Assembly: GCA_000310025.1 (NCBI GenBank)
Contig: FN649746.1
Coordinates: 196,546-260,545 of the forward strand
Direction: 5' to 3'
From: Ectocarpus siliculosus
Lineage: Eukaryota > Sar > Phaeophyceae > Ectocarpales > Ectocarpaceae
DNA length: 64,000 bases
The notes under the pieces were generated by a model. It made no database searches, was not told the DNA's origin, and worked only from the letters and a program-made list of their open reading frames with translations. Made by a program: the position numbers and the translations under genes. Within the stretch, counting starts at the first letter, position 1; each line of letters opens with the position of its first letter. Positions 730 to 54,494 of the stretch are shown here, one piece after another.

Positions 730-1324
730 NNNNNNNNNNNNNNNNNNNNNNNNNNNNNNNNNNNNNNNNNNNNNNNNNNNNNNNNNNNNNNNNNNNNNNN
801 NNNNNNNNNNNNNNNNNNNNNNNNNNNNNNNNNNNNNNNNNNNNNNNNNNNNNNNNNNNNNNNNNNNNNNNNNNNNNNNNNNNNNNNNNNNNNNNNNNNN
901 NNNNNNNNNNNNNNNNNNNNNNNNNNNNNNNNNNNNNNNNNNNNNNNNNNNNNNNNNNNNNNNNNNNNNNNNNNNNNNNNNNNNNNNNNNNNNNNNNNNN
1001 NNNNNNNNNNNNNNNNNNNNNNNNNNNNNNNNNNNNNNNNNNNNNNNNNNNNNNNNNNNNNNNNNNNNNNNNNNNNNNNNNNNNNNNNNNNNNNNNNNNN
1101 NNNNNNNNNNNNNNNNNNNNNNNNNNNNNNNNNNNNNNNNNNNNNNNNNNNNNNNNNNNNNNNNNNNNNNNNNNNNNNNNNNNNNNNNNNNNNNNNNNNN
1201 NNNNNNNNNNNNNNNNNNNNNNNNNNNNNNNNNNNNNNNNNNNNNNNNNNNNNNNNNNNNNNNNNNNNNNNNNNNNNNNNNNNNNNNNNNNNNNNNNNNN
1301 NNNNNNNNNNNNNNNNNNNNNNNN
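730..1324. other. Assembly gap
   Basis: Run of 595 N. The right edge is a 17-base poly-C run, so the gap probably arose where sequencing failed in a homopolymer. Confidence 0.99.
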
Positions 1325-5859: not shown

Positions 5860-8800
5860 CTCCCGTTCGCGGTGCACCTCCTGGTTCTCTTTGCACTCAG
5901 ACTGCGACGACGCCTTCTTCCAAGGCCTCCCCCCCCCCTCCGCAGTCCTGGCCCTCTTGCGGGGCCCCTTGCCCTCCCGCCCGCCCGCCGCCGCCGCCGC
6001 CGCCGCCGCTATCGTTGGCTTTGAGCGCTTCACCACCGGCGTCACCTTCTTGAGGCTACGGCTGCCTTTAGCCTTCGCCTCTAGGGATGACAAAGAAGTA
6101 TTCGCGTCTGCGCTTGATGCCAGGGGGCTCGTCCGTGTTGGCGCCGGGGGCGGAGGTGTCCGAGCCGGCTTCTGGCGGCGTGTCGTCGGCTGGTGCGGTT
6201 TGGCATGGGGTTTTCGACGTCGTTCGAAGAGGCGTTTTGACGCGTGTGGCAAAGGGGACGAGCGAGGAGGCAAGTGTGGTGTGAGACTTCGGGGGGGGAG
6301 GGGGTATTCGATAGGTCAAGGATGACATGCAGGGAGTGTTAGAGGTGTCGCGATAAGGACAGGAGCCGAATCTACACGAGCAGTGTCACACCTACGCCAG
6401 GACCAGAGCCAACAGGGGCCTACAGCACCAACACCGACCACAACGCAATATGGCACACCACCTTTACGGCCGCACAGGCGTAAGCACTGCGACAGCCACG
6501 GCTGCATCAACCAATACCACTCCACGTAGCACGACACCCACAGCCACCGAACATCATGACGGCAGCGGCAAGGGCAGCAACAAACACCACTTGCCGTCTG
6601 CAGGTTGCACAAGATTCCACACCCCCTGGACCGACTGTCAAAAGCTCGACTAACCCATACGTTTTCCGGGAAGCTCTAGACGCGGCGGTACAAACGCCTC
6701 CCGCCATTTATCTGCACCGCCACACTATTTGTGGTGCGGAGCATATCGGGCTGTAAAACCGGTCCAGGGTGTGTGGTATCTTACGTATGCAACTACTCCG
6801 GAGTACGATGCAACCGTCACGGCGTCGCGGCGACAAACCTACGACTTGACTATCTCTTCCTCTCTCTACGAGGCCACCGTTCAACCGGAACTTTGTTCTA
6901 CCGGAGGCGCGAAAGTTTTTTCCGATGTGGCGCACAATCCTGCCACCCAGCATGACCCTAGTACCGTCGTAGGTGGCATGACACAAGATGTCACACACCC
7001 CGGGATTGATTTTCAATACTTGATTATTCGGCAGGAAAAGCACCGATGGTGCCGGGAAATGGCGGCATTGGAGCCGTCTTGTCGAGAGCTTTTCCCGAAA
7101 ACGTGTCATTACATCCTTTCGTCGTGAAGCAATCGAGCTTTGAAAATCGTCCAGGGGGTGTGGTATCCTGCGTCACCTACTGTAGGAAGGGCGGCTACTT
7201 GTTCTGGGGAGCAACTATAGCCAACAAACAATCTCAGTCCGGGGGGGGGGGTTGTACTCATAGTCATGCATGCCGTAATCGTTAGACCATTGACCTCATT
7301 CGGGGGGGGGGGGGGGGATTGGCGCACTCATGCCCTTACTGGCGTACTTTACCTCGGGCACCTCGACGGTGAACCTGTCGCGAGGAGCCGACTGCCTGGC
7401 GGCAATCTCCAGCGGGGTGCACGAGATGTAGGTCTCCTGCACCCTCTTCTCGCTGCCGCCCAAGAGGTACTTGATATCAAAGTACGACATCTGCACCATT
7501 TCGCCGCACACCTCTTCCTCGGCTGTCATCGCCAACACGATACGCGGTACAATAGTTAGAACCGGCGAACCAAACCTTTTTTTGAGAAGCAAAGGCTAAG
7601 ATTTTGGCGGTACATGAGAAAAAGAGAAAAAAAAACTACGAGTAACAAAGGGTCAGATTTTGGCGGTAAATGAGGAGTAGAAATCGACGAAGAAGAAACA
7701 CACCTCAGACGCGGATCCTACAATAAGCTCCGTATCATGAGCTACTCGACAGTAAATAGTGGTGACGAAAAAGCCTCGACCCCAAAATTGACGTTTCTTA
7801 AACGCTGGCGCTAGCTGTATCGAGGTCGGTTCGGGGTGATGGGAAAAGATTAGAAAAGAAGATGTCGGGCTCCGGGTAGATTCGGCACTACAAGAACAAG
7901 GGTAGAGACAGACAGGTGTTTCATAACGGTAACAAATCGATTCGAGGCGGTGAAAAGCCCGCGTGCGGGCGGGCTGGGGGTCATCCATCTACCGACTGGG
8001 GGTGATGAAGCTTTTAACCGTGCGAGTGTCTACTAACAAAACGCGACATCACCGCTTGGCCTAAACTAGCCCGACACCAATCACCAATCAACCTGATGCT
8101 CGAGGAGCCACCATAATCTATTCGTCGTGCCATGGGTAGCTGCAAAATAGAATAGAACAACATCATGGGAAAGAAAAACTTCCATGTGACGTCATGCGGC
8201 GACACCATCTCGCCCGATTACAACACTATTCAAGAGTTAGCATACCGCTCTGGTAATATAGCAGCCATTGGGAACTCAAACGAGGAGCCACCATAATCTA
8301 TTCGTCGTGCCATGTGCCACGGGTAGCTGCAAAATAGAATAGAACAACATCATGGAAAGAAAAACTTCCATGTGACGTCATGCGGCGACACCATCTCGCC
8401 CGATTACACTATTCAAGAGTTAGCATACCGCTCTGGTAATATAGCACCCATTGGGAACTCAAACTTGTCTCCGAGCGGCCTTCATATTTCCCAACAGAGT
8501 GGAACACACGTGTACAAGAGCTCGCGCCAAACTCAACATCCAACATAAGCAAGCATTCAACTCGGAAGACCCCCAGCAACACGGCCGGTACAACCTACGA
8601 CAGGACAGCAAACGAACGAAAGACACGAAACCTAGCGGTAACAATAGCGTCGCGTCCTACCGGTGTACTTCTTTGTAATGCGGCCGATCCCGCCGGGCTT
8701 GTTGCTGCCGGGCCAGCACCGGCGCTCCACGTCCACAGTCTTGTGCGCACCGTCTGTCCCTTGCGGGCACATGCACGGTCCGAACGCGGTCCCCTGCTGA

Positions 8801-11800
8801 GGTTTGCCGAAAATGAGTCAAGACAAGGGCAGGGCGGCACGCAGACGATATGATGGAGAAAGTAGTCCATCGAGGTGGGCTTGTATATTGACCGTCGATG
8901 GTTATGTTGTTGACGTCCACAGCCCGTCTCAGCCAGTCTTCTCTTTGTCAACTCTCTCGAATACACTTTTCTCTTGACGGTACATACCCTACCATACCCT
9001 CCGGAGGTTCGTTCAACAGTCCCCTTGCAACAGAAAACAGAAAAAACTTCACTGTTCCCATGGGCGGCTTGGAAAAAAAAAATGAGACGACGCGCACATC
9101 TTGGGAGGCGCCGAAAACGATTCCCGTAGCCAACACTGGCTACGACACCAACATACTATGGGTTGCAGATTTCATGAGATATCACACCCCCTGGACCGAT
9201 ATTCAAAGCTTGATTACTCTGCAGGGAAAGCAGTGACGGTGCCGAAAAAGGCGGATTTGGAAACCGTCCCGTCGAGAGCTTTCCGAGCACGTATCGTTTG
9301 CCTCCGGCATCCTCTCGGTCGTAGAGAAATCGACCTTTGAATAATCGGTCCTGGGGGTGTGGTATCTTATGCAAACTACGGTAAGTTCCACCTCACACCG
9401 CGGCTAAGATACGGTACGATGAACCAAGACGCTACTACACCGCTCTTGTTTCACGAACCTTCCCGTCCCCCTTCGCCTTGCTCTTCGGAGCGGCCCCAGC
9501 ACCACCGCCGCCGGCTCCCGCGACATCGCCGGATGCTGCTGCTGCTGCTGCTGCTCCGGCCCCAACAGGCTCCACCGCAACACCACTCCGCTCTTCAGAG
9601 GTACCTCCTACGTCACCGCCCACGGCCTTCTCTCCCTGCGTCTCCTTCAATCCGGCCTCACCGTCTACCTCCATGTTAGCCTCCCGTGCCTCTTGAACCT
9701 CTCCCTTGCCTCCTACCACCACCTCGACTTCCTCCACCTCGGCCTCACCTTCTACCTCCATGGCCGCCCCCTGGTGCGGGGTTTCCTTGCCGTTGTCCGG
9801 CCCTACCATGTCCCCCTCCTCGGGACCTTGGACGTCCCCCTGAGGGACCGGTCCCGAAGGCTTTGGGGGCGCCGAACACGGCGTACCAGCGCCAGCCGTC
9901 GTCGACACACACCCCTGCGCGCCAGCCGTGGCAGCAGCACCAGCAGCAGTGGCTGCAGCGGCAGCACCAGCGGCAGCCGGAGAGAGTTCGGCGGCACATG
10001 ACCGAGCAGGCTTTCCCGCAGGGGAAACGCACCCTTGAGAAGAGGTCTCCGTGCTACCTTCCACCGTGCGGGCTAGATCTACTACCCTAGCAGGCTTTTC
10101 CCCCGCGGCCGGTGCATCAGGAGAAGCGTTTCCTTGAGAGGAGGAGGTATGGGTGCTACCCTTTGCTGTGTGCGCTGGGTCTAACACCGCAGCCAGCTTT
10201 TCCGCAGCCGGCGCCTCGGGAGCAACTCCGGTCACGGTGCTGCCCTTCACCGTGCGGGATTCGTCTACCATCGAAGAAGGCTTGTTAGCGGGAGTAGGAG
10301 GTGCTCCAGCCTGTCGAAGTGGACATCAGCAATTAGTGAAAGGGAGGGATGCAGCCCAGGTTACCTCAGGGCGACGGGGGGGAGGAAGCACATGGGTCCG
10401 TAACACGAGCTGTACCAAACATTTCACCTACAACAGGTAGTGAAGGCGAAGGCCCGCACGCTGGGCCTCAGCAAGTAACGGCGATTCTCAAAGAAGCCTC
10501 TCCTGGGCTACATACTGCTACAAGCCCAAAGAGAGCCGGTTGATATCACATGGCCGTGTCGTTTCGATGCCGCAGCGCGCGGCAGGAGCAACACTGAGTA
10601 TTCCCTTCGGCAACGAGCGGATGAGCACGACGACACATCTTAGACGACCCGAAGGCACAGGCAGCGTCGCGACTATCTGCAACAACAGCGGGAGAGCTCT
10701 CATCCACGGGGAGGCACAGTGTCCTGTGCCTCTTCAACACTTGTTCTTAGAAAATACACATGAAAAACAAGGAAGACTACGCGATCGAGATATTGCCACA
10801 GTCCAAAGGGAGTGCTCAAGTCTTTTCAGTGAGTGAAGGCAACCGACTGGAAACTGGGCTTGTTTCGAGTCTGTTCAAGCCTACACCCATTTTTTCACCT
10901 CTTGCGCTTGCTCTCGATCTTTGGAGGCAAGGGTTTGCTCGCCCTTCTTCTCCACTACGGCTTCCACTCCCTTGTCCTGCGGCTTTTCTTGGGGCCGGGT
11001 AGACTCTTGCGGCTTCTCCTGTTCATGCCCATCTGCCTGGCGTTGCTGCCACTCGTACTCGGCCAGGAGGCTTGGTTGGGAAACCACGTACTGCGGGAGC
11101 TGTAGCAGGACAGCGACAAGAGGGTAGGGGGGAAGCAGTGCTGTGGCCGCTGTTACACGCTCATGTCGGCAACAACCTTTGCTTGTTCATGTTGTCTTCA
11201 AGATTAAAACCGTTCCTCCTGCGGTGTCTTGCTGAGTACCTTTTAACGTCCGTAGTCCAAGAAACCGTGCAGATGTGGATTGGCGTTCCAAGAAAGGCAA
11301 GCTTTGCCCTCACACCGACGTAGACATGTCGATGGAGGAAACGGTGAGCGTTTCCTGGTGTAGGGGTCTAAACCACTTTCTAATGGCTTCGAAGGAACGT
11401 AGACAGCCCTTTCAGAAGCCGAAATCAAAATATTTGACCAGGCAGCTCAAACCATTTAGACTAGTCAGCCCAACCCAGCAGACTACGCGTTGTAGTCCGC
11501 ACTGACTACATAGTCTAATGGTTTGGTTCGGCCTCTATAGCTCCAAGGAGCATGGCAGCACCGTCAACCCGCCAAAAAGACTGAAAAACGTGACAAGCTC
11601 ACGGGTACATATCAGCAGTGCTCGATGCATACTAGCATCACCAGAGCCACCACATCAGAGCTACCTTCAACGGTGTCAACGCAACACGTCCATCTACCCC
11701 GCGATCCGTCCAGCACTCCACTAGCAACATCAGCGCTACCTCCACGCTTTCAACGCAACACATACCCACCTTCCCCTGAGCCATTACAGTGCCGAGAGCA

Positions 11801-24059: not shown

Positions 24060-26361
24060 ACATGAGTACGGCAAAGTTGATAGTTGCCCTAAAAACACAC
24101 GTGCGGCTCTGCCAACATTATTGCGGCTTCGTTGTTGGAACCCATTCGCGCGTGAAGGATTTTTTACCATCAAAGCTGCCACAAACACAAAGCAAATCCT
24201 CTTTGCAACCCAGTGCGATTTCGACATCGGTTACTGTTGAGACTGCCATGCACAGCAGTCCAGATCCGGCTAGGAAACGCGAAGTTGCGCGATCTTACTG
24301 GGTGTTTATTGGTGACAATGATTTGTTGACTGCTGCAGCACTATCGCATAGCTTAACCCTTTTGAGTCTTCAGGCGTTCTGACTGATCATTGACTGATCA
24401 TTTGCAAATGCTGGTGTAGTGGCAAGTCGTGGAGTTGCCGCCCTGCAGCCCTTCGCGCTGTGTATTGGCAAGTCCATAGGTGTGTCTAGATTTTTAGCAC
24501 CCGCGCTAATCGGCTGACCAATGAAGAGACGTCAGTGACAGCGGGTAATATCAAGGTCTCGGGAATGGGGCCAATCAATGCCAAATCATGAACCTCTCAA
24601 CGTATATACATGAACGTGTGTGTGCATACATACATGCATACATATGTGTTCTTTCGCAGCACCACACATACACTCGCCCGAACGTAGCCACTGCTGCAAA
24701 GAGCAGAGGGCAGCGAAAGGGAGGGGTACTGCAAGCCCTGCCGAAGCCCAGATATCCAGGATATCGTGGTATGCTGCATCTCCCAACAATTTGAAAATCG
24801 TTCCCAAGATCCAGCAGCCATTTTGTGAGCAGCTGCAACAAACGCTACAACAACACTACTTTATACTACTGCTGCAGACGAGTAAAACATATCAGCAACA
24901 CATCCACACTCACTCGTAGCGCCACACATACCCTCGCCCGAACCTAGGAAACCACGAGGTACAGGTGTGTGCTGGTGTGCTGGTGGATGTGCTTGTTGTT
25001 TGAAAAACACAGGAGTGCTAGAGAGCTGGCAGGGCACATTTCGGGGGAGGACAAAGACCAGAGAAGTACAGAAGTACAAATACCAGCTATGGGTCTTCAC
25101 TGATCATTTTACCCTCTCTGGACTGATCATTTACAATATGCCGAAAATAGACTAGTTGAGCCAGCTAGACGACTGATCATTTCAAAGTCTGCACAGCTAA
25201 CCTGCCCTACTGACCGCAGCGCGACCACCCATCAACCCTTCTACGACCCTATCTGTGGCCACCACCCTGTCGCCGGCTTCTCTCATGGCCTACAGGTGGA
25301 GGTAGCTATTGCGTATGCAGAAGCACTGGTGTCTTTCTCTGCACTTCTCCCTCTCCCGCTCGCTCTCGCTCTCAATTTTTTTTGTTGGCGAAAAAGAAAA
25401 AATCTGACAGTCCAGCCTAGACCCAAAGGGGTTAAGACTATACTTGGATAAAGAAGGGACTAAAAACATTTCTGTCGCTGCGATGAACACCTGCTGTAAG
25501 TCGGTCATCAAAGGGAGGGCCGGAGGAATGGAATGCATTCATTGTCGTTACAGAGTTGCAATCACCGCTGTCCCTCGATCCACTACTGTCTGCCTTTGAA
25601 GTCAACGGTCAACCGTGATGCAACGGCAACTTTCTATCTCCTTTCCCTCTCTCTCTCCCTCTCTCGTACGCATACCTGACAGCAGGCATCACCATGTGTG
25701 CTGTGGAACTATGTATGTACAAGTAGTGGACACTACGTGTGAATGTCCATGAAGTGGTCAACGTGGTATGCACACCGACCGTGCCCGTAAAAGGACTACA
25801 TCACTAATGTAGATTCGTGTGCGTAGGGGCGTGAGTGCGCAAATGAAATGAAATTGAGAGGTGCAGTCTAACTCACCATCATGATTCGCAGAAGCAGACT
25901 CACCATCCCCACAGCATCTTCCACCAGCCTCCTTATCACGAGGCTCCGGCATTGCCCTCCCTGCCCAAAAGGCCGAGTTCCGAGTTCGAACTTTCGAAAC
26001 TCTGCTGTGCTGTTGGGCTGTCAGAGAATTGCCCTCTGCCCTTGCGCGAGTTTCACAGGAAACAAATCACTAGGACCACCTGAAAAAGCCCCCCCCCTAG
26101 TGCTCCTCCTCTCTCCTTGCTTCTCCTGCTGCACGCACACACCACGTTGGGGTAGCGAGAGGGCGTATCAAACACGAGGAAGAGTCGACAACACGGGGAC
26201 AATGTCGATCGCCCCCTACCACCGGCACATCGCGTAGCCTCAACTTGGAAACCCTTCTTCTGCGGTCTGCGAAGCCCCCTATTTGCGGCTGGTGGGGGCT
26301 GCCACGCCATTGCTGGCAGGTGCTGTCATCACCTCTGTGCTGGCTTTGCTCTGTGGCAACC
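24060..26361. other. Intergenic region
   Basis: No coding exon is convincing. The motif ACTGATCATT occurs five times (near 24380, 24392, 25098, 25122 and 25170). The last few hundred bases should hold the promoter of the ferredoxin-MBL gene. Confidence 0.5.
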
Positions 26362-29300
26362 ATGACCTATCGTCTTCCCTCGTGGTGGAGTAGAAGCCCT
26401 TGGTTGAGCCGTGCGTTGGTGCTAGCAGCATACGTGGCTTTGACCAGCACCCCGCCATCATCGGCATTTGTGCTTGGCATCGATCAAGGAGCCGCCGCAC
26501 CTGCGACACCTGTCATCAGCAGGGAGGTCGCTTTCGTGACAACAACAAGCGATGTGGCTGCTGTTCGTCGAGGGGTGGGGCTAGGGCTGGGAGGAACGCG
26601 GCGTGGAAGGAAGGTTCGGAGTTCAATTCCGGTGTGCTAGGATTCAAAAATATGCTGATATTGCTGTCGTGTTTACTGCGGTAACTTTTATGCACCTTCA
26701 CAGTCCCGTAACAAGACACCACAGGAATGACCAAGTTCCCATTTTTTTCGGCCGTTCAGTCGTCCGTTCCCCCCACGCTCTTGACGCGAGAAGGTCGGTG
26801 ATACCATGATGGGCGATGCGCAGAGGAGACCCAAGCTGTAGGGATTCATGTCGCCCTAGTTTTGCTTTCCGCCGCATTGCCCGTTGCGTATGCAAACAGC
26901 AAATGGGTTTGAAGTTTGCCGCGATTTTTCAAACGAACGTGCGGCTCTTCTTGTGTGTGGCACCGCGATGATATTGCTGCTGTGCCTCTGCATGGCCGCG
27001 CGTTGATGCATGCTGCTGCTGTTTCTCCCTCACACACGCTAACAATGTTGCGCTCTTAATCGTGATTTGTTCTTGCTCTGTTGCGTACGGTACTCAGCAG
27101 GCAGCGGGCGGCGGTGGGTTGACCATGATTTTAAAGCGAAAGATGAGGAAGCGAAGGAATTCATCGGGCGATTTCTTCGTGGACGAAAGGTGACAAAAAT
27201 ATAACGGGTACGTGTACCTTCTGGGTGTGGGAATGTAGTTCTTTTTTTGTAGTTTTTTCTGAAGTAGTTTCAAATTTGGATTATTGGAAAGAAAAAACAG
27301 GGCATGCGACAAACTGGACACGGAAAAGAAGTGCCAACCAACACACTCGGGGCTAAGCTAAGCCTAACCCGTTCGTTCATTTCCTTTTCCAGGCCTCCTA
27401 GCCCACTGCCCAGGTCAAGACTTCACGCCAATTGACCGCAAGCTATTCGGCAATGACGTCCCCTTTTAGCTTGCTTATCTTTCCTGTTTTGCACTTGTTA
27501 GCGCTTGTGGCGCTTGCTCATATCCCTCTCTCCTACCCCCTACCCTCACATCCAAGCATACAATGCGGATGATCTGCATCTTCCAGCTCTCTGAGTCTGA
27601 ACGGCGAACGCTCCTTGCTTCGCTAGTTGCGTGGCTCCTCCTATCCTTCCTGAGTGCAGCGCGTGTTGGGGGTCGCCTGCGACCCTGCTTGCTATGTGTT
27701 ACCACCGGTTGTCGATCCAAGCGAGTCTTAAACGATCCACGAGGTTCCCTCTAGTCGAGCAGAACGGCTGCGTGCACTACATAGGTCCGTTGCCACGCGC
27801 ACAGAGCTCCGACGCTCGGCCTACGTAGCAAAAAGTGCAAGACGGCACACGCTGACATCGACGCTCATTGGCTCGTGGTTGGCGAGTGGTGGTTGGTTGG
27901 GTTTTGCTGTTTTTGTTGGTGGGCTTGTGGGTAGGGCTGCTATTGCTGCTATTGCTGCTGTTGTTGCTGCTGCTGCTGCGCTGGAGGCGCTGGACGCGGG
28001 AGCGGTAGGCCAGCAACTAACCAAACGAAAGCGTTGAACAATCGGTACTGCTTCGCTGTTGCTCAGAGCACAGCGAAAGTTACACAACAGATGTTGGTGG
28101 TGGTCACCCTGAAGGAAAATATCTACCAGCTGCGGCAGCTGTTGTCCTCCTCCTCCTCCTCCTATTCCTATTCCTCCTCCTATTCCTCTTCCTCCTCCTC
28201 CTCTTCCTACTCCTATTCGTACTGCTACGACGCGCTCGAAGCATATTTTTTCCGTACCTCGCACGCAAGTCTGCTCACCAACGCTGAGGTGTTAATGCCC
28301 TCGTGTATGCACGCTGTCCGTAGTGCTGCTTTGCTCTCTCTCTCTCTGTCGTATCCACTCCCTTGACCGCACATGAGCATGCCTCCATCGAAATCCCAAA
28401 ACTCCGACATCAGCATCCTGGGAACTATTGTAGCTACGTGGCCTTGAATCTATGACCCCTCTCCCCTCCCCTCGCCCTCAGCTGCGTGGACTGTGATATC
28501 TGCTGCTGGATGGACCCCCGTACCTTCAAGAGGTCGGGGCTAGGCGCTGTGGTTGCCTCGCAACCCAAATCAGAGGTACGAGGAACACAACGGTCGGTGC
28601 TGTGAATCAGTTCCATATATCCGTTGGTACGGCAAAGATCGGTACTGCTATAAGCAGGTCTGCTGGGACATATTTCTTTTTTTTGTTATCCACCTGTGTT
28701 TTGTTCTCGACGTATGCTCTTTTTTTTGTTCTCGACGTGTGTTTTCGCGAGAGTCTTGGTGTCGAGTCGTTTTCTCTCACGAAATGATGGCACTTGTTTG
28801 GAACGCAGCGCTTGTTGCTTTGACGACGGCAGCATGCACTTACCGCTAAGGCGAGGTCCTTGTTGATTTCGATGTTATTTGAGTCATTTAGCGCGTGCTC
28901 GCTGCAATGTCCAGCCCTCTAGCGGGACCATGGTAGTGTACGCCTGAACGATGAGCAAGAATTCCCTCCGCACTTCTTGGAAGGGGTACATACCGTAGGT
29001 GACGCAAGATACCATACCCCCTGGACCGATTTTCAAAGTTCGATTACTCCACCGACAAAGATGATGCATATATCAAACGATGCGTTTTAAGAATACTCTC
29101 GACGAGACGGTTCCAACGCCGTCATTTTCGGCGTAACACTCGTTCTGCTGCCGAGTAGTCCATCTATCGGTCCAGGGGGTGTGATGTCTTACGTCATGTC
29201 ACCTGCGGTATCTACCTGCTTCTTCTTCTTCGGCGGTGCGCTTCCTGCTGTCGGGTGTGTTGTGCACCATGCGTTCCGTGTGATGTCTCGCCCTGCGCTG

Positions 29301-30478
29301 TTGATCGTGCTGTTGGTAGAAACCTTGATGTGCGTTTCATGCACGTCTTGCTTTTTATCGATCGCATGTGCGTACAATGTGCTGCTTCGCAGGAGGACCG
29401 AATGAGAGCGTTCCAAGCGATGCTCGCGTGTCCCGCGGGATCAATCCGTGTCATGCGAGGAGACAGACAGGTGAGCTGTCGATGTCGCTGTCGGCTGGTG
29501 GTGTTTGATGCCGCGTCAACGAGGTTTACGTTAGGAAGAGGGCTAGCATAGAGTTGGTCGAACGGGCGGGGAGTCGGACCCAACCCAAAATGTTCTCGCC
29601 GGTGGGCGACCTCCAAAGGTTGTCGGAACGTTCCGAGGATCGTCGCCTGCTGGACTCTCTTGTGTGTGTCTACATATGGATACCTTTGCTACACGTATAC
29701 CTATCTGTCGTCCGCAGAGTAATCTACATGTCTATGCGGAAGCTACCGCCTGTACCCGATGCTTGAGCAATTCCAAACGGGCGGAGTTGTTGTGTTGTTG
29801 ACTTCCCACCACTACTGTAATTCCCGTTCCAACCTCTGCTCAATACCTTCTTACGTCTGCATTGGCGCAACTGACGCGGACGCAATGCATGACCACAGGA
29901 CACATACCCCGATAAAAGGTGCAATATATGGAAGCCGAAATCAAACCATTCGACTAGTCAGCGTTGATTTCGACTTCTATGAATACAACAATCAAGAAGG
30001 GATCGATGCATAGAAAATACCAACACAAAAGGTGGCGAAAAAAAAATCATTCAAAAAGTCATTTTAATTTTTTGCTGTTGCACACAACGCGGTGAACACA
30101 AGATAAACTCAACAGTAACAATTTTTTGCCGCTGCTCTGTTGTTCAGGTGATCAAAGCTCTCGAGAGCTTCCCGTTACCTGTGGACGAAGAGCGTCTCCC
30201 CGGCATATACCAGCTTGGTCCCACTACCCGCGAGTCCATGGGCAACACCCCGTACCTCATCGTGAGGCCCGGAAAGGGGAACATCATGATCGACGTTCCT
30301 AGGTGATTTTGGTCAAGTCGGGGGGTGGCAACAGCTGTTGTCGTGGGAACAGCTATTGTTGTTGTACTCTTTTGGGGATAGGTAGCTTGTGAGGACGATG
30401 TTAGAAGGTACTGGGCAAAGACCGCGGCAGATCCTATTATAAAAGACAACAACATGAACAACAACAAGTTCACTGTCA

Positions 30479-30520
<42 letters not shown>

Positions 30521-33500
30521 GGCGGGCTGTCGCACACCAACTGCTATACACGAAACCGCGTCGCACCAAGTTACTATTCATTCCATGTCGACCGTTCACG
30601 ATGATCTAGTCGCAACTTGTCCGCCCCATCGGGTGTCGGAAACAGACAAAGAAACAACCGACGTCCCCGTGTTCTATTGGTTAGACGACACCGTCACCAG
30701 CAGTGTACATTTTTTTTTGCTCGGTTATGCTCCTCTCTTCGCATTGCAAACTGCCGCGCGCACTCGGCTGGCTACATGGTGATGCTCTTGACTGTCGACT
30801 TTTTTTACTAGCGTGGTTCTGCCCGTGTTGCCAGGTGCTTAGGCAAGGCCGCGGCGTAGGTATCCCGAGCGTGCGAGACGCGAGATGGTAGCGTACGAAA
30901 ACCTGCACCCTAAAGTATTGTTGCTGCGGCACAGCACCATGTACACACCGCTCTGCTCATTGGTGTTGCGGAGCTATACCATTGTGAACACACGGGTCTG
31001 CTCATTGTCTCTGCACCATGAACACGCGGCTCGCAGCTGCTGCGGCGCAACAGTATGAACACACGGCTCCGCTCATTGGTGCTGCGGCGCAACGCCATGA
31101 ACACACGGCTCTGCTGTTTGCTGCTGCACCATGAACACACCGCTCTGCTCATGGTTGCTGCGGCGCAACAGTATGAACACACAGCTATGCTCGTTGTCGC
31201 TGCACCATGAACAGACGGCTGGCTCATGTCTGTTACTCATCCGATATACCTTACCATCACCGCTCTGGTCAATGCACTCCCGTGCCCAGGTACCTGGAGC
31301 AGACTGCAGATCAGGTGGCGGCCCTTGGAGACGTGAAGTACATGATTGTTACAGCCAGGGATAACGCCGATGGTAAGACAAGACTAAAACAACTTTCGCC
31401 CGGGACGTATCACTGCTGTATGTTGCTCGGAGTCGGAGATGAGTAGATACAACACACAGATAGGTATTGGCCGTAGAAGACCATGAGTTAATATGATTAA
31501 TTGCTTATTTTCCCTGGACTGTTACAGATTTCGAGTTTCGATTAAGACAAATTTTGATTGTTTTTATAGGCATATAAAGAAATATGGGTTTGCTTCAGGA
31601 CCACGTCCACGTATTTAGAGTATCCCGCACCACCACCGCGGTTTCTTTGTTCACCCTTTCGTTATTTTTGGTCTGGTTGCCACGGCCACCCTTTCTCCTG
31701 TGCGTTTCAATTTATCCAATTATACGTTTCAATTTGCGGCTTACGTTTGCCATGTATCGCAACATCCCGACCGTTTTGCCTACGACAATAATTATGTGTA
31801 CGTGCGTGTTTTGTCTCTTGCTGGCCAGGGCACGAGAGGTGGAAGAAGAAATTTCCGGGAATGATCCGCATCCTGCACCGGTTGGACCTAGTCCGCAAGA
31901 CGCGTATCATGGAAGAGAGGCTGGATGGGAAGGGACCCTGGTACCTCGTTGAAGACGGCTTTGAGTCGCCAGAAGACGGCTACGTTACTGGAGACACGGG
32001 TAAAGGGCACAACCTGTTGCGTGATACAGCAGTGTTCCTTTCCTAGGACATGGTGGGATTATGTTTTACATGGATTTCCCGAGCCGTAAGAATATTCTCA
32101 ACCTATTGTGGGATACAGCAGTGTTCCTTTCCTAGGGCATGATGGAGATGACGAATCATGGAACAGCCTGGTTTTACCGAGCCGCAAGAATATTGGTCAA
32201 CCTATTGTGGCATTCGGCGGTGTTCTTTTTCTAGGAAGTGGTGGGGATGATGTTTCACCGTGCAGCCTGTTTTGCCCGAGCGGTAAGATATGCCAGATTG
32301 TGTCTCAAATGTTGTTGGTCTTTAACTGCAGATATGGAGAACATGCGAGCGTTTCTCTGTGTGTGTTTGTGTAGCCCTACCTGATCTGGATGACATTTTT
32401 CGCAGCGTTCGGTATGTGTTGGACACATCAGCAAGGAAACGGGAACAGAGGAGGAATGGAATGTCAACTCATATTTAATCTACCGTTCTACGGTGATTGA
32501 CTTCATTTTTCTATGGAGGAGTTTAGGTGCGGTGCCTCTTTTCCCATCAACCGTAAAGTCGAGTTTTTTGCGGTCCCACGAACATTTTGATTTGAAGACA
32601 GCAACAGCAATGGCAGCAACACAACGACCACAACAACAAGGACATCACCCCCACCACCAACAACAACCAACCAACCCTTGTCTTGTTCTATTCCTACAGC
32701 GAGGTTCGACTTCTTTGAGGTAGCAGACGAGGACTGCGCTCCGCATGACCCCACCGTCAAGATCGTAGGCATCCCGGGACAAACAAGGGGGTCGATCGGG
32801 GTCATCGTGGAGTGGGGAAAGAGGAAGAGGGGGGGTAAGGAGAGGCTCGGCTTCACCGGGGGCACGGTGGGGATGTCGGTGGAGAAAGAGGTGAGGGTAG
32901 GGGTTTCGTCGATGTTATTGTGGTGGTGGCAGGCCATTTTCGCGGTTGGAGGGTGTTTTTTCTGGGTCCATTTTTGTTCTCCGTTCTTCCATGTGTAGAA
33001 AAGGTGTGCCCTGTTCGGGTAGTTGGCCTGTGACCATGGAGGTTGTCCGCGTCATGTGGACCAGTACTGACAGTAGAAGATACTGAGCGGAGACAGGAAC
33101 GATGTTTAGCGTAAAGAGACAGCAACAACGAGGCGTATGCAGGCTCACCGGGATTGGCAATTGATCCATACTCTTCAGGACTTCCCCAGACAACAGCAAG
33201 GCGTATTATAGGATTTGCCAGGATTGGCAGTTGATCCATTCCCATCAGGACTCCTCTCCCAGAAACTGATGGCAGTCTAGGCTTGAGTGATCACACACAA
33301 ACCGCCAGTTATTTTTCGAAAGATAGCGACAAAAGGAGAGCCCAAGATTCAGGGTCACGTGCGTCATCCAAACGACAGATACATGCCGTAGGTTACATAC
33401 GACATCATACCCCCTTGGCCGATTTTCAAAGCTTGATTACTCGGAAGGGAAAGCAGTGACGGTGCCGAAAAAGGCGGAGTTCGAACCGTCCCGTCTAGAG

Positions 33501-35179
33501 CTTTCCGACAACGTATCGTTTGCCCTCGGTACCCTCTTGGTGGTGGAGTGATCTAATCGAGCTTTGAAAAATCGGTCCAGGGGATGTGGTATCTTACGCA
33601 ACCTACAGCACCTTGATATATATCCGTATCACGGGACCCCTTGTCTCTGTCGACCGCCCACACACACAGATAATTACCATCGTACAAAGTCCAGGTGTTT
33701 TGGGAATTTGCAACAGACGTACTGAACGGCAAGCCGGGGAAGGCCTAGTCTTTTCTTTAGCATCTGATGTACTTCTTCTGCCTTGAGCTCGCAGTGTCAA
33801 CCACATGGGGTGATCTTCATGGAGGGTAGCGTCAAACGACGTTCAAGTGTTCGGTGGGTGACCGGACGTTACATGACACCTTAACGGCCGATACGTGTGG
33901 AGATACATGTCACGTGTCTTCATTTATTTGGGCGTCAGTCGTGTACACCAAACAAACGATTGCACTTGTTGTTCCATGAACCTCATGTTCAGAGATTTGG
34001 CGATCTGCGTGTCTGTGTTCTCAACAGATCCCGCCCTCTGTTTGCCCTTGTTTATTGTCCTGTGCTTCTTTTTTAATCAGAAATTGGATACGTTTACTCG
34101 AACCTTGGAGACCGATCGGGCAACACTGGCATCTTCCGTGCGATTATTATCAAAGGTGCGTTGCAGCGACGTTTGTTGTATGTACGTACAACCGTCAGTA
34201 ACGGGTGGGTGTCGACGGAGTAAAAAAATGGAGAGATGCGCGTTCGTTTTGCTGCACGTCGGAGTGTTGGATAAAAAAAAACTTACGAGCGATGTTCGTG
34301 CAAATCGAGTAGCGTCCCGAATCTGAGGCTGGCTGTCCAAGCACATGGCCAACAGGTTTGGCGAGGAAGGATGTCATGGAGATACTGCATGAATAACAGC
34401 ATTGAACTATTCGAATCTGCTGTTCACGAATAGTTTGCCGGATGATTGCGGGTGGACGCGTTTCAAGTTTCAAGGGACGGGTCGGTCCATTGGTGAGCAG
34501 CCCAACATCCGCTCAAGCGACCACCAATCGATAACGACCAAGCAGATAAATTTAGCCCAAGGACTATCGAAACGTTTGCTGTTCTTGCTATACTCCATAC
34601 TATGCGGAGGGTGTTCCGCACGGTTCCCAACCAGAGGTTTTCCTATAGATAACACTCGTCGGGTTTTTTATCCATCCGATATGTAAGGGTCATCGAATTT
34701 ATCCCCAGCACACAAATCAACTACAATCATCCCTCGGTGAAGGACAACATTTTTAAGGACGCTCCGCCGGTTAAGGACAAATAATTTTTCACAGGCATGG
34801 TGGCTCCCAGAATGTACAACATATGGAGGGGTATCAACCTTAAGGACACTTGCCTGGCTTGAGGACAACCCTGTTTGAACGAAAAACCATGTGTGTGTCC
34901 TTAACCGAGGGACGACGGTAGGCCACGCCTTAGCTCGATCATGGCATCCCCCCCTCCCACTGCTGTAGGTTTCTCTTTGCCCCTCCTGACCGCCAAAATA
35001 ACAAAACAAAAACTGCTGCGCAGGAGGGCATCACCTGGCTCATGCCAGGCAGGGGTGCGAGAGTGATGTACAGGACGAGAAAGGAGGGCAAGGCTGACTT
35101 GGAGAAAGCGGCCGGTAGGACGGAGGCGTTGCCGAACCTGGCGGGAAACCGTCTCCTCTTCGGAACGGAATTCTTGTGA
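26362..35179 (+). CDS. Plastid ferredoxin / metallo-beta-lactamase-like fusion
   Basis: Ten exons, all phases matching: 26362-26613, 27101-27189, 28482-28575, 29393-29470, 30148-30302, 31290-31372, 31829-31999, 32700-32890, 34081-34155, 35024-35179; 447 residues. Residues 1-40 are a heterokont plastid presequence: a hydrophobic signal peptide ending in SSAF (33-36). Residues 110-160 form a single-cluster ferredoxin-like domain, CVDCDICCWM (C115, C118, C121) and the distant C158-P159 in LACPAGSIR. Residues 187-447 follow the order of a metallo-beta-lactamase fold: GIYQLGPTTRESMG, YLIVRPGKGNIMIDVPR, a TARDNADGH segment (244-252), RILHRLDL, VGIPGQTRGS (330-339), FTGGT (359-363) and LMPGRGAR (402-409). 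Algae and plants have proteins with this ferredoxin-plus-MBL layout. Here the metal-binding motifs are all altered, so hydrolase activity is doubtful. A stromal electron-transfer or sensing role is inferred. Introns carry two MITE-like elements and several tandem repeats. Confidence 0.88.
28991..29216. mobile_element. MITE-like inverted-repeat element
   Basis: Left end ACCGTAGGTGACGCAAGATA and right end TTACGTCATGTCACCTGCGG are long inverted repeats. The interior has the CTCGACGAGACGGTTCCAAC core in the opposite orientation to the other copies. Lies in intron 3 of the ferredoxin-MBL gene. Confidence 0.85.
30385..30470 (+). repeat. SINE-like dispersed repeat, copy 1
   Basis: AGGACGATGTTAGAAGGTAC then TGGGCAAAGACC, followed by a CAA-rich tail (ACAACAACATGAACAACAAC). 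Shares its body with copies at 33045 and 37597. Confidence 0.55.
30481..30517. repeat. (TC)n microsatellite
   Basis: 37 bases of TC dinucleotide just after the CAA tail of a dispersed repeat. Confidence 0.95.
30930..31217. repeat. Minisatellite, about 44-bp unit, 6 copies
   Basis: Degenerate copies of CACCATGAACACACGGCTCT then GCTCATTGGTGCTGCGGCGC in intron 5 of the ferredoxin-MBL gene, ending about 70 bp before the next exon. Confidence 0.85.
32009..32290. repeat. Tandem repeat, about 90-95-bp unit, 3 copies
   Basis: Three diverged copies of GATACAGCAGTGTTCCTTTC then CTAGG, ending CCGAGCCGTAAGAATATT. They begin within 10 bases of the donor of the exon ending at 31999. Confidence 0.85.
33045..33130 (+). 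repeat. SINE-like dispersed repeat, copy 2
   Basis: GCGTCATGTGGACCAGTACT, then AGAAGATACTGAGCGGAGAC, then a short CAACAACG tail. Upstream sequence also matches the copy at 37597. Confidence 0.5.
33121..33261. repeat. Tandem duplication, about 70-bp unit
   Basis: Two copies of CAACAACGAGGCGTATGCAG then GGGATTGGCAATTGATCCAT then TCTTCAGGACTTCCCCAGA, in intron 8 of the ferredoxin-MBL gene. Confidence 0.8.
33379..33610. mobile_element. MITE-like inverted-repeat element
   Basis: Left end CATACCCCCTTGGCCGATTT and right end AAATCGGTCCAGGGGATGTG are inverted repeats. The interior matches the copy at 9161 closely. Lies in intron 8 of the ferredoxin-MBL gene. Confidence 0.85.
34728..34918. mobile_element. 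Second type of short inverted-repeat element
   Basis: Left end ATCCCTCGGTGAAGGACAAC and right end GTCCTTAACCGAGGGACGAC are inverted repeats. Internal copies of TTAAGGACGCTC and TTAAGGACACTTGC are also present. About 190 bp, lying about 100 bp before the last exon of the ferredoxin-MBL gene. Confidence 0.7.
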
Positions 35180-35325
35180 CGGATCGAATAGTGTCGTCAG
35201 AAGAAATCTACGGAAGTAGTTTTTTTTTTAGATTTTATCAAAACAGTTCTTGTGACGGATCGAGTGGTGTCGTCAGAAGAACTCTACGGAAGTTTTTTTT
35301 TTTTTTTATTAAAACAAATTCAATC
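35171..35325. repeat. Tandem duplication across a stop codon, 76-bp unit
   Basis: TTCTTGTGACGGATCGAATA at 35171 is repeated as TTCTTGTGACGGATCGAGTG at 35247. Each copy ends in a poly-T run. The first copy contains the TGA stop of the ferredoxin-MBL gene, so the second lies in the 3' untranslated region. Confidence 0.9.
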
Positions 35326-37031
35326 TGCATGCACAGACGAAGAGTCAAGGACAATTAGCAAGATTGCGATAGTGTTCTATGGCTTAGCAAGAAATCATAG
35401 TATTGTGTGACGTATGCATACCTGTAGTTTTGCTTCTGTTATCTGAGCAACTGTAGTGTTTTCTGTAAAACAGTTCCGTGAGATCGTTGGAACGACCGAA
35501 CAGCTAGCTCATTTGTTGTTTATCCTTAGCAGCAGTGGTGGGGGTATTGGGCGTGCGATGCTGACGGTCGTTTTTTGGTTTGTTTCCATGTGTTTGTGGG
35601 CTTCGACGGTACAATGCTGGCCGGGAGCCCGCGATCAACCCCTTGTTTGTGCATGAACATCAAGTTCTCTGGCGCAGATTGTGTGTGGGATACCGCTGCC
35701 TTGCCATCGCGCACTGGGCAACAAATTTGCTAGAGTTTTCCCTCTCGAGCTACAGCGCACACCAAACTGACGGGGCGAGCGTGCTGAGCAGAGGATCACT
35801 CTTGCAGGATTTTGTAACCGAGGGACAAAACCTCACGAAGAGATGGAGAAAAGGGGTCTACCACAGCAGTGCTGCATCAATCACAGAGCGGTGTTGCCAT
35901 CATCAGCAACCCAATGACGCATGTCCCGACATCAACAACAACAAAAGCAGAGCGTCAGGCAATGACGCCTGCCTCCAGATCAACGGTGAAAGCACGGCGA
36001 TTTCATCGGTAATATTTGGCTTATCAGTTACTGCTGCCACATATAACGCTTCTTTTCGGGCGTTCCATAAACAGGCGTTAGCCTTGACACGCAACACTAC
36101 CAACAACTCGTACCAACATAATGCAGAGACAGACAGACATAGACAAGAGATGGGGCGACAAGATGAGCATCGACCCCATGTTACAGAGAGAGAGAGAGAG
36201 AGCGACCGATCCTGCAGCACAATTGGGTCTCGCACAGCAAGCCACCGCCGTACCCTACGTAGCACACGTTCATCGATGCACAATACCAGGTGGTATGTGA
36301 TGTCCTCTACAGAGTCTACTCTCGACGATGCTTCAGACAAAAAACTGTGCGGCCTAGCCCACTACAGCACTTGGTGCTTGAGATGCGCTACAGACCTACG
36401 ACACCAGGGCTACAGGACGAAACGTCTGCAATGCAGGTGCCACCGCTATCCTCGCCCGGCCTACCTTTTAACCGCCCACGGCGCAACGCGTTTATCTTCT
36501 CTGTGAGGAAGAGTAGCATGGATGAGGATCCGCCAGCTACACAAGCTAGAGGCCTGCGTCAAACGTCACTTGGGCCAGCTGTTAATGTCAAAAAGTAACA
36601 CGCAGACGCGTCGAATAAGCTACTCACAGCAGACACCTACACCTACAGTAGTTGTATAACACAGCACAATAAAGACGCATTCATAGTACACACGACACTG
36701 CATGCAACCGGCAGGAGTGCTTCTTTCAGCCCCCCCCCCCCCCTCCCAAGATGCGATCACACACTGAGCCCCCGGACAGCTATCTTTTTCGAAGTTCTCC
36801 AGAGACAGTAGTCTACGGCCCAGCTTCCATTGGGAGGGTCTTCAGATCCCCCCGACCCCGACCCCATAAACGCTTATCCCTACTGCAAATTCCCATACTT
36901 TGTCCTCAACACATGTCTGTCAAGTTAACACAGGCGCTCTTCATCTAAAACACACCTACCGTAGATCCGCTTTGGACTCCAACAACGGCATTCAAGACAA
37001 CAGAAAAAAAAAGCAGCAGTTTGTCCGAGTA
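35326..37031. other. Intergenic between convergent genes
   Basis: Only 3' flanks are expected here. A 308-codon open frame (35580-36506) has no splice support, no domain and repeat-derived composition, so it is not called. A poly-C run lies near 36729. Confidence 0.5.
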
Positions 37032-41819: not shown

Positions 41820-42045
41820 ATTACCGTATATGACACAAGATAACACACCCCCTGGGCCGATTTTCAAAGCTCGATTTCTCAACAGCAGGAAGAGTCACAG
41901 CGCCGAAAACGGCGGCGTTGGAACCGTCTTGTCAAGAGGTTTTCGAAAATGTATTGTTTCGTTTATGCATCCTCTTCGTCGTGGAGTAATCGAGCGTTGA
42001 AAATCGGTCCAGGGGGTGTGTTATCTTGTGTCATATACGGTAATC
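41820..42045. mobile_element. MITE-like inverted-repeat element
   Basis: Left end CACACCCCCTGGGCCGATTT and right end AAATCGGTCCAGGGGGTGTG are inverted repeats. The interior is the family core GGCGGCGTTGGAACCGTCTT. Confidence 0.9.
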
Positions 42046-42965: not shown

Positions 42966-43188
42966 GCGTAGGTGACATGACGCAAGATACCACACCCCCT
43001 GGACCCATTTTGAAAGCTCGATTACTCCACAGCAGAAAGAGTGGCAGCGCCGATAACGGCGGTGTTCCAGCCGTCTCGTCGATAGCTTTCCGAAACATAC
43101 CATTTCATCCTCTTTGTCGTGGAGTAATCGAGCCTTGGAAATCGGTCCAGGGAGTGTGGTATCTTGTGTCATGTCACCTACGGTAGGA
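42966..43188. mobile_element. MITE-like inverted-repeat element, best-preserved copy
   Basis: Left end GTAGGTGACATGACGCAAGA then TACCACACCCCCTGGACC. Right end GGTCCAGGGAGTGTGGTATC then TTGTGTCATGTCACCTAC. The terminal inverted repeats run for about 60 bp each, with an ATTACTCCAC/GTGGAGTAAT inner pair. Confidence 0.9.
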
Positions 43189-51716: not shown

Positions 51717-52961
51717 TTAGGGAAGCGTTGCGTTTTCCACCTTCAAGACTTGTACAGTTGAAGGAACTCCGACCCCATCTAGGTTCGAATCTTCAAATAC
51801 GACCAGCTCACGAAGGCCCTTTGGCCAGTCGATCCCGCGGAGAAGGCTATCGTATCCTGAGTCGTCTTCAAATTGGTAATCAAGAAGACGCAATGTTTCC
51901 AGGTTGGGCATCCACGTGCCCAGTCCTTGCAGTGACTGCCTGAACATGTGGCCCAGTGTGAGTCGCCGCAGCGATGCAGGCCAAACACTCCTACCGATAC
52001 GCTGGTTGAAGTTCCCGTACACCGCCACCCGGTTTTCCCCGCAAAATTCGTACCATCCAAACGTAAGCTCTTGCAATGCTGTCGGCCACTCGACATTCTC
52101 AATTGGCTGGTTAAACCAGTTTCCGAACTCGAGCCTCTGAAGCGAATCTGGCCATAATACGTCCTCAATGGGCTGGTTGAACTGTGCGCCGAAAGCAAGC
52201 TCCTCGACGGATGCCGGAAAGGTACAAGAGTCGATCGGCTGATTGATTTCGTTGCCGAACTAAAGCTGTCGCAAGGACCGCGGACACGCGACATCTTTTA
52301 TGGGCTGGTTGAAGTCTCCCACAAAGGTGCGCTGCGATGCCGGAAACTTGGCCCGTTGGATCGGCTGGGTACAGTATCTGGCGAATATTAGCTGCTGCAG
52401 CGATGCCGGACATTCAACTCCCTCGACCGGCTGATTGAACCCGTCGCCAAACCGTAGCTGTCGCAAGAATGGCGGCCAAGCGACATCTCTTATGGGCAGG
52501 TTGAAATTGCCCGCTAAGGTGAGCTGCTCCAGCGATGTCGGAAACTTGGCCCGTGCGATCGGCTGGTTGAAACACCATTCAAAGCAAAGCTGCTGCAGTG
52601 ATGCCGGAAATTCAACTTCCTCGAACGACTGGTTGAACGTTCCGCCAAAGCGGAGCTGTCGCAAGAACCGCGGCCAAGATACGTCTTTTATGGGCTGGTT
52701 GAAATCGCCTACAAGTGCGCAGGTGAGCTGCTGCAGCGATGCCGATCCTGGCAGATGCAACGGTGGTTCTGTCTTCCGCGACGTTAGAAGATCTTCCGTG
52801 TTTTGACTGCGCCAGCATCGGTGCCGCCTCTTCCGTGAAACCCGACAGAGGTGCAAATTTGAATCTCGAAGCAACAGAGCACGCTGTTTCCCGCTCTTTT
52901 CGAAATCGCACGCTTTCGGCAAGACCGAGGCCAACACAATAACCATATAGGCAGGGCTCAC
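51717..52961 (-). pseudogene. FNIP-type leucine-rich-repeat gene, decayed
   Basis: The minus strand encodes about 13 repeats of some 22 residues with the pattern FNQPI..V.WP.SLQQL.FG. Examples are GDFNQPIKDVSWPRFLRQL, FNQPIARAKFPTSLEQL and AQFNQPIEDVLWPDSLQRL. This matches FNIP repeats, known from Dictyostelium and expanded in brown algae. The C-terminal cap (PNLETLRLLDYQFEDDSGYD, VPSTVQVLKVENATLP) ends at TAA 51717. A TAG at 52262-52260 interrupts the frame exactly where each repeat has a Leu-x-Phe-Gly step, and both sides remain in the same frame, so one substitution explains it. One repeat also lacks three residues (FPASQRTFVG). The 5' end (GTG at 52961, or ATG about 15 bases in) has no good start, and a different frame reads better upstream, so a frameshift is likely. 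FNIP proteins are thought to be protein-binding solenoids. Confidence 0.7.
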
Positions 52962-54494
52962 CCCCCCCTACAACCTGATATATAGCACAGGGTCGGCAAG
53001 CGGGCAGGCGATACACACAGACCTACACGGCGGAGACCACCACATGCATAAATTACTAGCTGTGCATGGTGGTGGGGCTGCACCAGAGGGAACCAATCGG
53101 CAGTATTGCTGTGGACTACAATACATAGACTACTGCCGTAGCAGTGCGGCTAAACGCTAGAGGCAAACATCATCTCTCGCGGTTTTCCACCCTTCTTCTC
53201 TCCCTTGCCCTCGAGAGTTGGAGCAGTGCAGTGTCTGGTGTGTCTGGTGTCTGGTGTGTGCAGCAGCACAAGTGAGGGGTTGTCTTGGGGTTGTCTTGGG
53301 GGTGTTGCGAGGGGGGACGGCAAACCGGCATCATGCCGACTCGAAGTGCCGTCGTTCAATCTCGAAAGGTGACGATCGCATGAAGCTGTCATCGACGTAT
53401 TATGTCGGGGGAATATAAGGGCTATGGGGTGACAGCTGAGGCTTGGTGGTGGATGTCATGTGTGAGGAAGAGTACCCAACATGTGTTCGAAGGCCTTGGC
53501 AAAGCAAACCGCGCGAGGAGGATGGGCGTATGACAGTTCGTGCGGATGAACTGCTGACGTTTCACGTTTCACCGCACGGCCTGCGTTTCGGCGTTGTCAT
53601 GTCACTTGTCATTCCCAAGCTCGTTATCCGTAGGGCGAAGGTCCTGGTGGGCTTTCCCCTCCGCGAAAATTTCGAGCGCATCTTTTTCGCCGAACGCCGA
53701 ACTCGAACACGCGAACAAGTATACTAAATATGGTGCGGCAATCGCTCGCACCGGTCAACCGGTGGGCGAGAAAAAAAAAATGGGCCTTTCTCGCCGTCAG
53801 GCGAGTTTTCGAAAGTCAGGTACCCCCTTGAGTGTTTCACTGGCCAGAAACATGTGACGACACGCCCTCTCCATATATTTTCAGTGATTTCCTGTATAAA
53901 TACCGCCAAAATCTGGAAAATACTGGCACCGAAAACTTCGAGTTCGTTCCAATATTTTTTTGGGAAAAAAAAAAATGGAAATCTGGAAAGTCGGAATCTA
54001 GAAACAAATTTGGAAATTTTGCGAGCAACATCGCTGTGTAAAAACGGCCCTAAAGAGTCCCTTACACTATAATAGCACCTATTTGTAGCCCACAAGAGGA
54101 ACTACTGTAAGAACCCCAGCCTCGACCAAAACTGGAGGTTATACCATGAGGGCGCTATCTGTAAGTCACGCCACGGTCTCGATACACTCGCGTAAAAGGA
54201 GTTCGATCAACGACCACTCAGTCAGTCGGCTACAACGAGTGGTCGGGAGTCCGGCACAGGAAAAGCAACGCAGTTTTTGACAGCCTCGCCTGCGGCCTCA
54301 CTTGAAAATCCACGGTTCAAAGGAAACGACAGTCGAGACCCGAAGGAGCGATGCACTATACGGTACAGTACAATACACCACCGGTGCTTGCTAGCCTAAG
54401 CCAGGTAACGGCGACACGGAAACTGACCCCTCGCTAGAGCCTGGACGTCACGGAGCCCCCCCCACCACTCTCAACGTAGGGTCTCTATTCCCGA
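52962..54494. other. Intergenic region
   Basis: Lies between two minus-strand genes. No exon with coding-like composition and paired splice sites is visible. Confidence 0.4.

Follow-up and report, generated by a model that had tools for sequence, protein, structure and literature searches.

A ferredoxin-MBL gene of Ectocarpus siliculosus with altered metal motifs, a possible non-catalytic partner of its intact paralogue

Subunits with a metallo-beta-lactamase (MBL) domain that has lost its metal ligands are already known as a kind, from RNA processing and from the flavodiiron proteins. In the excerpts of PMC4390876 that were available, Flv1 and Flv2 lack the canonical ligands, Flv3 and Flv4 carry them, and Flv2/Flv4 is a heterodimer; CPSF100 and INTS9 are described, in parts of PMC4819959 and PMC7980224, as metal-less MBL partners of CPSF73 and INTS11. 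The gene considered here lies in a stretch of 64,000 nucleotides of the brown alga Ectocarpus siliculosus (contig FN649746.1, positions 196,546 to 260,545), hereafter the window, and encodes a ferredoxin domain followed by an MBL-type domain in which most of the residues expected to bind metal are replaced. A second gene of the family in the same genome has them all. The product of the window gene may tentatively be read as a genuine pseudoenzyme that serves as a non-catalytic partner of this paralogue, a reading to which we give slightly less than even confidence. No description of a metal-less member of the ferredoxin-MBL family was found in the literature, most subscription journals being outside the search. 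A first reading of the window from its letters (the original prediction) had proposed a "non-hydrolytic" role, a term that presupposes hydrolysis by the intact family; no statement of such an activity, or of any function of the family, was found within the same limits. The Arabidopsis proteins At1g29700 and At4g33540 are presumably members of this family.

The window gene comprises ten exons on the plus strand between 26362 and 35179 (Table 1), with 1344 coding bases including the stop, which translate into 447 residues. The frame has no internal stop, and each of the nine introns is GT-AG. The exons were assembled by eye through homology and splice signals, without transcripts, and exon 2 has an alternative acceptor (27098, NAGNAG) three bases away from the one modelled, either of which preserves the frame. 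The span originally outlined, 31290-35179, is real coding sequence, but it holds exons 6-10 only, with the ferredoxin domain lying upstream in exons 2-4. The protein is ordered as a signal-peptide-like start, a Fer4_13 ferredoxin domain (Pfam, E 5.3e-14) and the MBL-type domain. All four cysteines of the pattern C-x2-C-x2-C...C-P are present in the ferredoxin domain, as C115, C118, C121 and C158. In Pfam searches of the 447 residues at E up to 10, Fer4_13 was the only match and no MBL model was returned, and the paralogue gave a weak Lactamase_B match (E 0.037) under the cut-off of the model. The window protein had no matches in NCBIfam, and a PDB sequence search with it returned three weak ferredoxin matches only, the best at E 0.098. 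Plastid-targeted proteins of heterokonts carry a signal peptide followed by an ASAFAP-type site with Phe at +1, as set out in the portion of PMC4329603 consulted. By-eye reading of exon 1 finds a hydrophobic stretch and then SSAF, and the protein is probably destined for the plastid.

All four altered strings named in the original prediction are present in the spliced protein, namely TARDNADGH (residues 244-252, its codons interrupted by the intron after 31372), IPGQTRGS (332-339), FTGGT (359-363) and MPGRG (403-407). The baseline against which the first of these had been set, HxHxDH, was mistaken, and the motif of the bacterial family is instead [ST]H-x-DD-[VI]-A-D-[HA] in most rows of the alignment. 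In profile alignments with glyoxalase II, and with columns numbered by the intact paralogue, H137 corresponds to the first His of HxHxDH, D139 to the Asp and D140 to the last His; the family motif is without the second His of glyoxalase II and two residues shorter, intact members included. From these alignments we infer ligand roles for six columns, H137, D139, D140, H205, D241 and H286, at which the window protein has A, D, N, Q, G and R. One of the six ligand-type residues (H, D, D, H, D, H) is therefore left, D139, against six of six in the paralogue, and the alignment places no canonical ligands at shifted positions in the window protein. The codons at the lost His, His, His, Asp and Asp are GCC, CAA, AGG, AAC and GGC; if the ancestral codons were CAY and GAY, the five changes amount to at least eight base changes, and the loss is therefore not the result of one recent hit. 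The predicted protein very likely lacks a working metal site of the ancestral type. An acidic insertion specific to the window protein, which contains ADEDCAPHDP, precedes the second motif.

Two sets of bacterial relatives were compared. The first consists of the best 80 of 198 relatives from a scan of genome contigs, with the alignment led by the intact paralogue; both peptide patterns used for recruitment lie within the ferredoxin part and not on the ligand motifs, and the relatives were ranked by their similarity to the intact paralogue. For the second, a family profile (A3) at 1e-40 matched 40 of the 194 sample genomes of the cyanobacterial phylum, in 43 places. Ligands were checked in 39 of these, omitting a stop-bearing match in G164, the two halves of a split match in G073 and a second partial match in G130, and two of the 39 repeat the first set, leaving 117 distinct rows out of 119. 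H137, D139, H205, D241 and H286 are present in all 119, and D140 in all 80 rows of the first set and in 118 overall, the single exception being T. The column of H144, which is retained in the window protein as H252, holds His in just 58 of the 80 rows. Mean identity of the window protein is 31% to the 80 rows and 37% to the paralogue.

Twenty MBL columns are invariant in the 80 rows. The window protein alters seven of them, and five of the seven are among the six ligand-type columns, a clustering with a hypergeometric P of 0.007, from which it follows that the ligand-column losses are not due to chance. The paralogue alters one of the 20 (A142). The earlier view that the surrounding fold sequence is well kept stands in part: 36 of 56 columns conserved at 95% or more in the 80 rows are retained, but the paralogue retains 48. 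The fold sequence can still be recognised in the MBL half, and the window copy presumably adopts the fold.

The paralogue was found through a Fer4_13 search on another contig (C8, locus L023, minus strand, 8121-2888). It was modelled as nine exons from the ferredoxin domain onward, the first exon being outside the model, and all nine are open, with GC donors at two introns. Its motifs are all intact (SHIDDVGDH, PGHSRGS, FTGDH and LPGHG), such that the genome holds a copy with the full ligand set that is predicted to be active. A whole-protein tree of 40 rows joins the window protein and the C8 protein as sisters (support 100/98), and the relation is recovered in 33-row trees from the ferredoxin part alone (98/87) and from the MBL columns minus the four motifs (98/94), the latter, together with the alignment, identifying the region behind Fer4_13 as a homologous MBL-type domain. 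The intron at the end of exon 3 is common to both genes, in the same column and phase, and two further intron pairs lie at most three columns apart in different phase. The nearest bacterial group differs by domain, being Planctomycetota in the ferredoxin tree and the bacterial rows L065 and L093 in the MBL tree. Given the intact sister gene and this placement, the simplest course is that a duplication came first and the window copy then lost its ligands. As read from these sequences, the ligand loss is one that affects one duplicate and not the sole ferredoxin-MBL copy of the genome.

No third full ferredoxin-MBL gene was found in the genome with the window protein, the C8 protein and one cyanobacterial protein as queries. 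These searches went exon by exon, with the best candidates alone scored, and beyond the two genes gave weak matches only, on contigs C16 (E 0.05) and C2 (E 4.5). A ferredoxin locus on contig C3 (L024, G000 C3:684001-694000) was rejected as a third copy: no match was seen there to the MBL part of the window protein, and the locus encodes another Fer4_13 protein (E 2.5e-11), put together by eye from two pieces near 7643 and 6779 on the minus strand. We take that protein to resemble the plastid J-domain ferredoxin proteins.

The presence of a ligand-less copy beside an intact one suggests a non-catalytic partner rather than an ordinary enzyme. In the mechanism proposed here, a ferredoxin-MBL gene duplicated in the eukaryotic lineage to give the nuclear gene of the window. 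The ferredoxin half, with its four cysteines, would still carry a [4Fe-4S] cluster, and the MBL half would be expected to hold no metal pair because both half-sites lose ligands. The protein would then be a non-catalytic and perhaps heterodimeric subunit alongside the metal-bearing C8 paralogue, relaying electrons from its own cluster, shaping or stabilising the complex, or both, a role that ligand-poor Flv1 and Flv2 may have next to Flv3 and Flv4, and that CPSF100 and INTS9 have next to CPSF73 and INTS11. If the metal site is indeed gone and the gene does work, analogy makes such a partnership somewhat favoured.

Several points weigh against this pseudoenzyme-partner reading. The partnership rests on analogy and not on a result, and the Flv case within it is itself not firm, for part of PMC4390876 has Flv3 possibly acting as a homodimer with Flv1 as an auxiliary. 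The window and C8 genes are on different contigs. The MBL part of the window protein changes faster and has lost 20 of the 56 columns at the 95% level. Its end branch is 2.83 in the MBL tree against 1.01 for C8 (2.8 times), as compared with 1.36 and 1.19 in the ferredoxin tree, but the contrast between MBL and ferredoxin rates leans on these branch lengths, and fails to reach significance when columns are counted (Fisher P 0.64 to 1.0). By such counts the excess of MBL changes in the window protein is significant with the motifs included (P 0.0005 to 0.009) and reaches just P 0.05 to 0.13 without the motif columns. Both the whole-protein tree and the MBL tree flag the window row as a long one, and the MBL tree flags its composition as odd as well. 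Persistence of the gene over time, finally, is extrapolated from one genome.

The main rival to the partner reading is a free redox or docking protein. In this free-standing carrier or sensor the work would fall to the ferredoxin half, the MBL fold would be retained for docking or ligand binding, its new polar pocket made up of Gln335, Arg406 and the acidic insertion, and the C8 paralogue would not be needed. The intact cysteines and a ferredoxin half that evolves about as in the C8 paralogue agree with this, as does the insertion specific to the window protein ahead of the second motif, and no result obliges a partner. There is also a precedent in the inactive human CMAH-like MBL protein, for which the consulted part of PMC4819959 gives proposed roles and names no active paralogue as partner. 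Against it, the metal-less MBL proteins CPSF100, INTS9 and Flv2 each pair with an active paralogue according to excerpts of PMC4390876, PMC4819959 and PMC7980224, and none of the data favour a free-standing role over a partner role. It is rather unlikely, if still to be reckoned with.

Early decay is the next possibility, in which selection on the whole gene ended not long ago and mutation has so far spared the reading frame and the splice sites. This would account for the longer MBL branch and for the conserved columns lost outside the motifs as well. Five ligand changes have accumulated, however, in a modelled frame that has no stop and keeps GT-AG at nine introns, and all of the ferredoxin cysteines are retained. 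GC content at third codon positions (GC3) is 0.68, well over the 0.50 of the introns and near the 0.74 of the paralogue (introns 0.55), and under full drift a frame of 341 codons would, as a rough estimate, stay open with a chance near 8e-8. The judgement that the locus is not decaying is thus upheld by a gene that looks intact; it is likely a working gene, and early decay is improbable.

A changed rather than dead enzyme, whose metal would be bound in another way by D247 and H252 together with residues from the acidic insertion, is slightly more doubtful still. The equivalents of D139 and H144 are indeed retained and the insertion offers D, E, C and H residues, but the Asp of the bridging type (D241) is lost, as are the His residues at H137, H205 and H286, and a new ligand arrangement is supported by no comparison made. 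An artefact of the gene model or assembly, through intact alternative exons or a mis-joined frame, might be suspected of a model built by eye and with two possible acceptors at exon 2, yet it is very improbable, as the altered motifs each lie in open sequence flanked by conserved neighbours, a six-frame scan of 26000-36000 finds the four altered motifs and no intact ones (the same scan detects four intact motifs in the paralogue locus), and tblastn with five relatives as queries, run at E 1, finds no second copy of any motif exon in that interval, on which grounds intact alternative exons were rejected.

Other observations concern the relatives and the rest of the window. One genome of the cyanobacterial phylum (G049, contig 334) has a second, very divergent ferredoxin-MBL copy, L164, with T at D140 and PAHG in place of PGHG, which may show ligand change in bacteria as it begins. 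The third cluster cysteine is S or A in 16 of the 80 bacterial rows, in which the MBL ligands are intact, the opposite of the window case; these rows (L091, L092, L094-L105, L108 and L109) are from Burkholderiaceae and one betaproteobacterial bin, and the plasmid locus L025 is alike. Plasmid-borne ferredoxin-MBL copies carry the annotation "MBL fold metallo-hydrolase". Viral contigs gave three pattern matches, none of them a relative.

In the window, a short element with inverted arms (AAAATCGGTCCAGGGGGTGTGGTATC), which start about 140-170 bases apart, is present in six paired copies, two of which lie in introns of the ferredoxin-MBL gene. Copies were located with two pattern searches, shuffled controls of which gave none, and the element looks like a non-autonomous inverted-repeat transposon. 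Intron 5 holds, just 5' of exon 6, an array of five imperfect copies around ATGAACACACGGCTCTGCTCATTG, with 61-83% identity to the reference copy. A tandem duplication of 72 bases (86% alike, spacing 76) has a first copy that starts over the final two codons and the stop codon of the gene. On the minus strand an open frame encodes FNIP repeats (Pfam PF05725, E 6.7e-21), and a run of N is either a scaffold gap or a withheld stretch. Rfam at gathering scores gave no matches in the window.

Table 1. Positions of the ferredoxin-MBL exons and of other features, numbered from the first base of the window.
Feature	Position	Strand	Content
Exon 1	26362..26613	+	Start codon, then a hydrophobic stretch like a signal peptide and SSAF; by eye, a possible plastid-targeting start of heterokont type
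Exon 2	27101..27189	+	3' end encodes GDFFVDE, start of the ferredoxin domain
Exon 3	28482..28575	+	Cluster cysteines C115, C118, C121 (CVDCDIC)
Exon 4	29393..29470	+	C158 (ACP), fourth cluster cysteine
Exon 5	30148..30302	+	N-terminal part of the MBL-type domain (GIYQLGP...MIDVPR)
Exon 6	31290..31372	+	Metal motif 1, TARDNAD(G); A245 replaces His (31354-31356), D247 retained, N248 replaces Asp (31363-31365)
Exon 7	31829..31999	+	End of motif 1, (G)H, with H252 at 31831-31833; window-specific insertion then begins
Exon 8	32700..32890	+	Acidic insertion, then Q335 replaces His in PGQTRGS (32780-32782) and G362 replaces Asp in FTGGT (32861-32863)
Exon 9	34081..34155	+	Gene model
Exon 10	35024..35179	+	R406 replaces His in PGRG (35051-35053); C-terminus, stop
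AAAATCGGTCCAGGGGGTGTGGTATC pairs, introns 3 and 8	29008-29188, 33401-33593		Within the ferredoxin-MBL gene
AAAATCGGTCCAGGGGGTGTGGTATC pairs, elsewhere	6613-6780, 9178-9366, 41839-42025, 42986-43163		
AAAATCGGTCCAGGGGGTGTGGTATC single arms	5762, 16530		
Array in intron 5	30897-31206		Five copies around ATGAACACACGGCTCTGCTCATTG
Tandem duplication	35171-35318		
Open frame with FNIP repeats	52260-52967	-	
N run	730-1324		

Among known proteins, the bacterial and cyanobacterial ferredoxin-MBL fusions are alike in domain order, cluster cysteines and full-length homology, but they keep H137, D139, H205, D241 and H286, and D140 in all but one row, where the window protein keeps D139 alone. An MBL-fold protein of 201 residues without a ferredoxin domain is itself altered at four of the six columns (H137 to N, D140 to H, H205 to K and H286 to D), yet it retains D139 and D241, and its loss is separate from that of the window protein. 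CPSF100 and INTS9 resemble the proposed role as metal-less MBL subunits paired with an active paralogue, and differ in being RNA-processing proteins with a beta-CASP domain and not redox proteins; no beta-CASP domain was found in the window protein by Pfam to E 10. With an intact and a ligand-less copy in one genome, both with the ferredoxin half, the two genes offer a clean natural comparison of cluster and metal site. They might even form a two-gene plastid system of metal-bearing and metal-less subunits, parallel to and independent of Flv1/Flv3 and Flv2/Flv4, in which the [4Fe-4S] cluster of the metal-less subunit would feed the dimetal site of its partner, although this specific form is unlikely. 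Flv1 and Flv2, the cluster A flavodiiron proteins, are a group to which the window protein does not belong but which is alike in kind, being also MBL-type subunits of photosynthetic cells that lack canonical ligands beside ligand-bearing paralogues. They differ in receiving electrons through a flavodoxin-like flavin mononucleotide (FMN) domain, of which the same Pfam search found none in the 447 residues of the window protein, and in whose place it has a ferredoxin domain.

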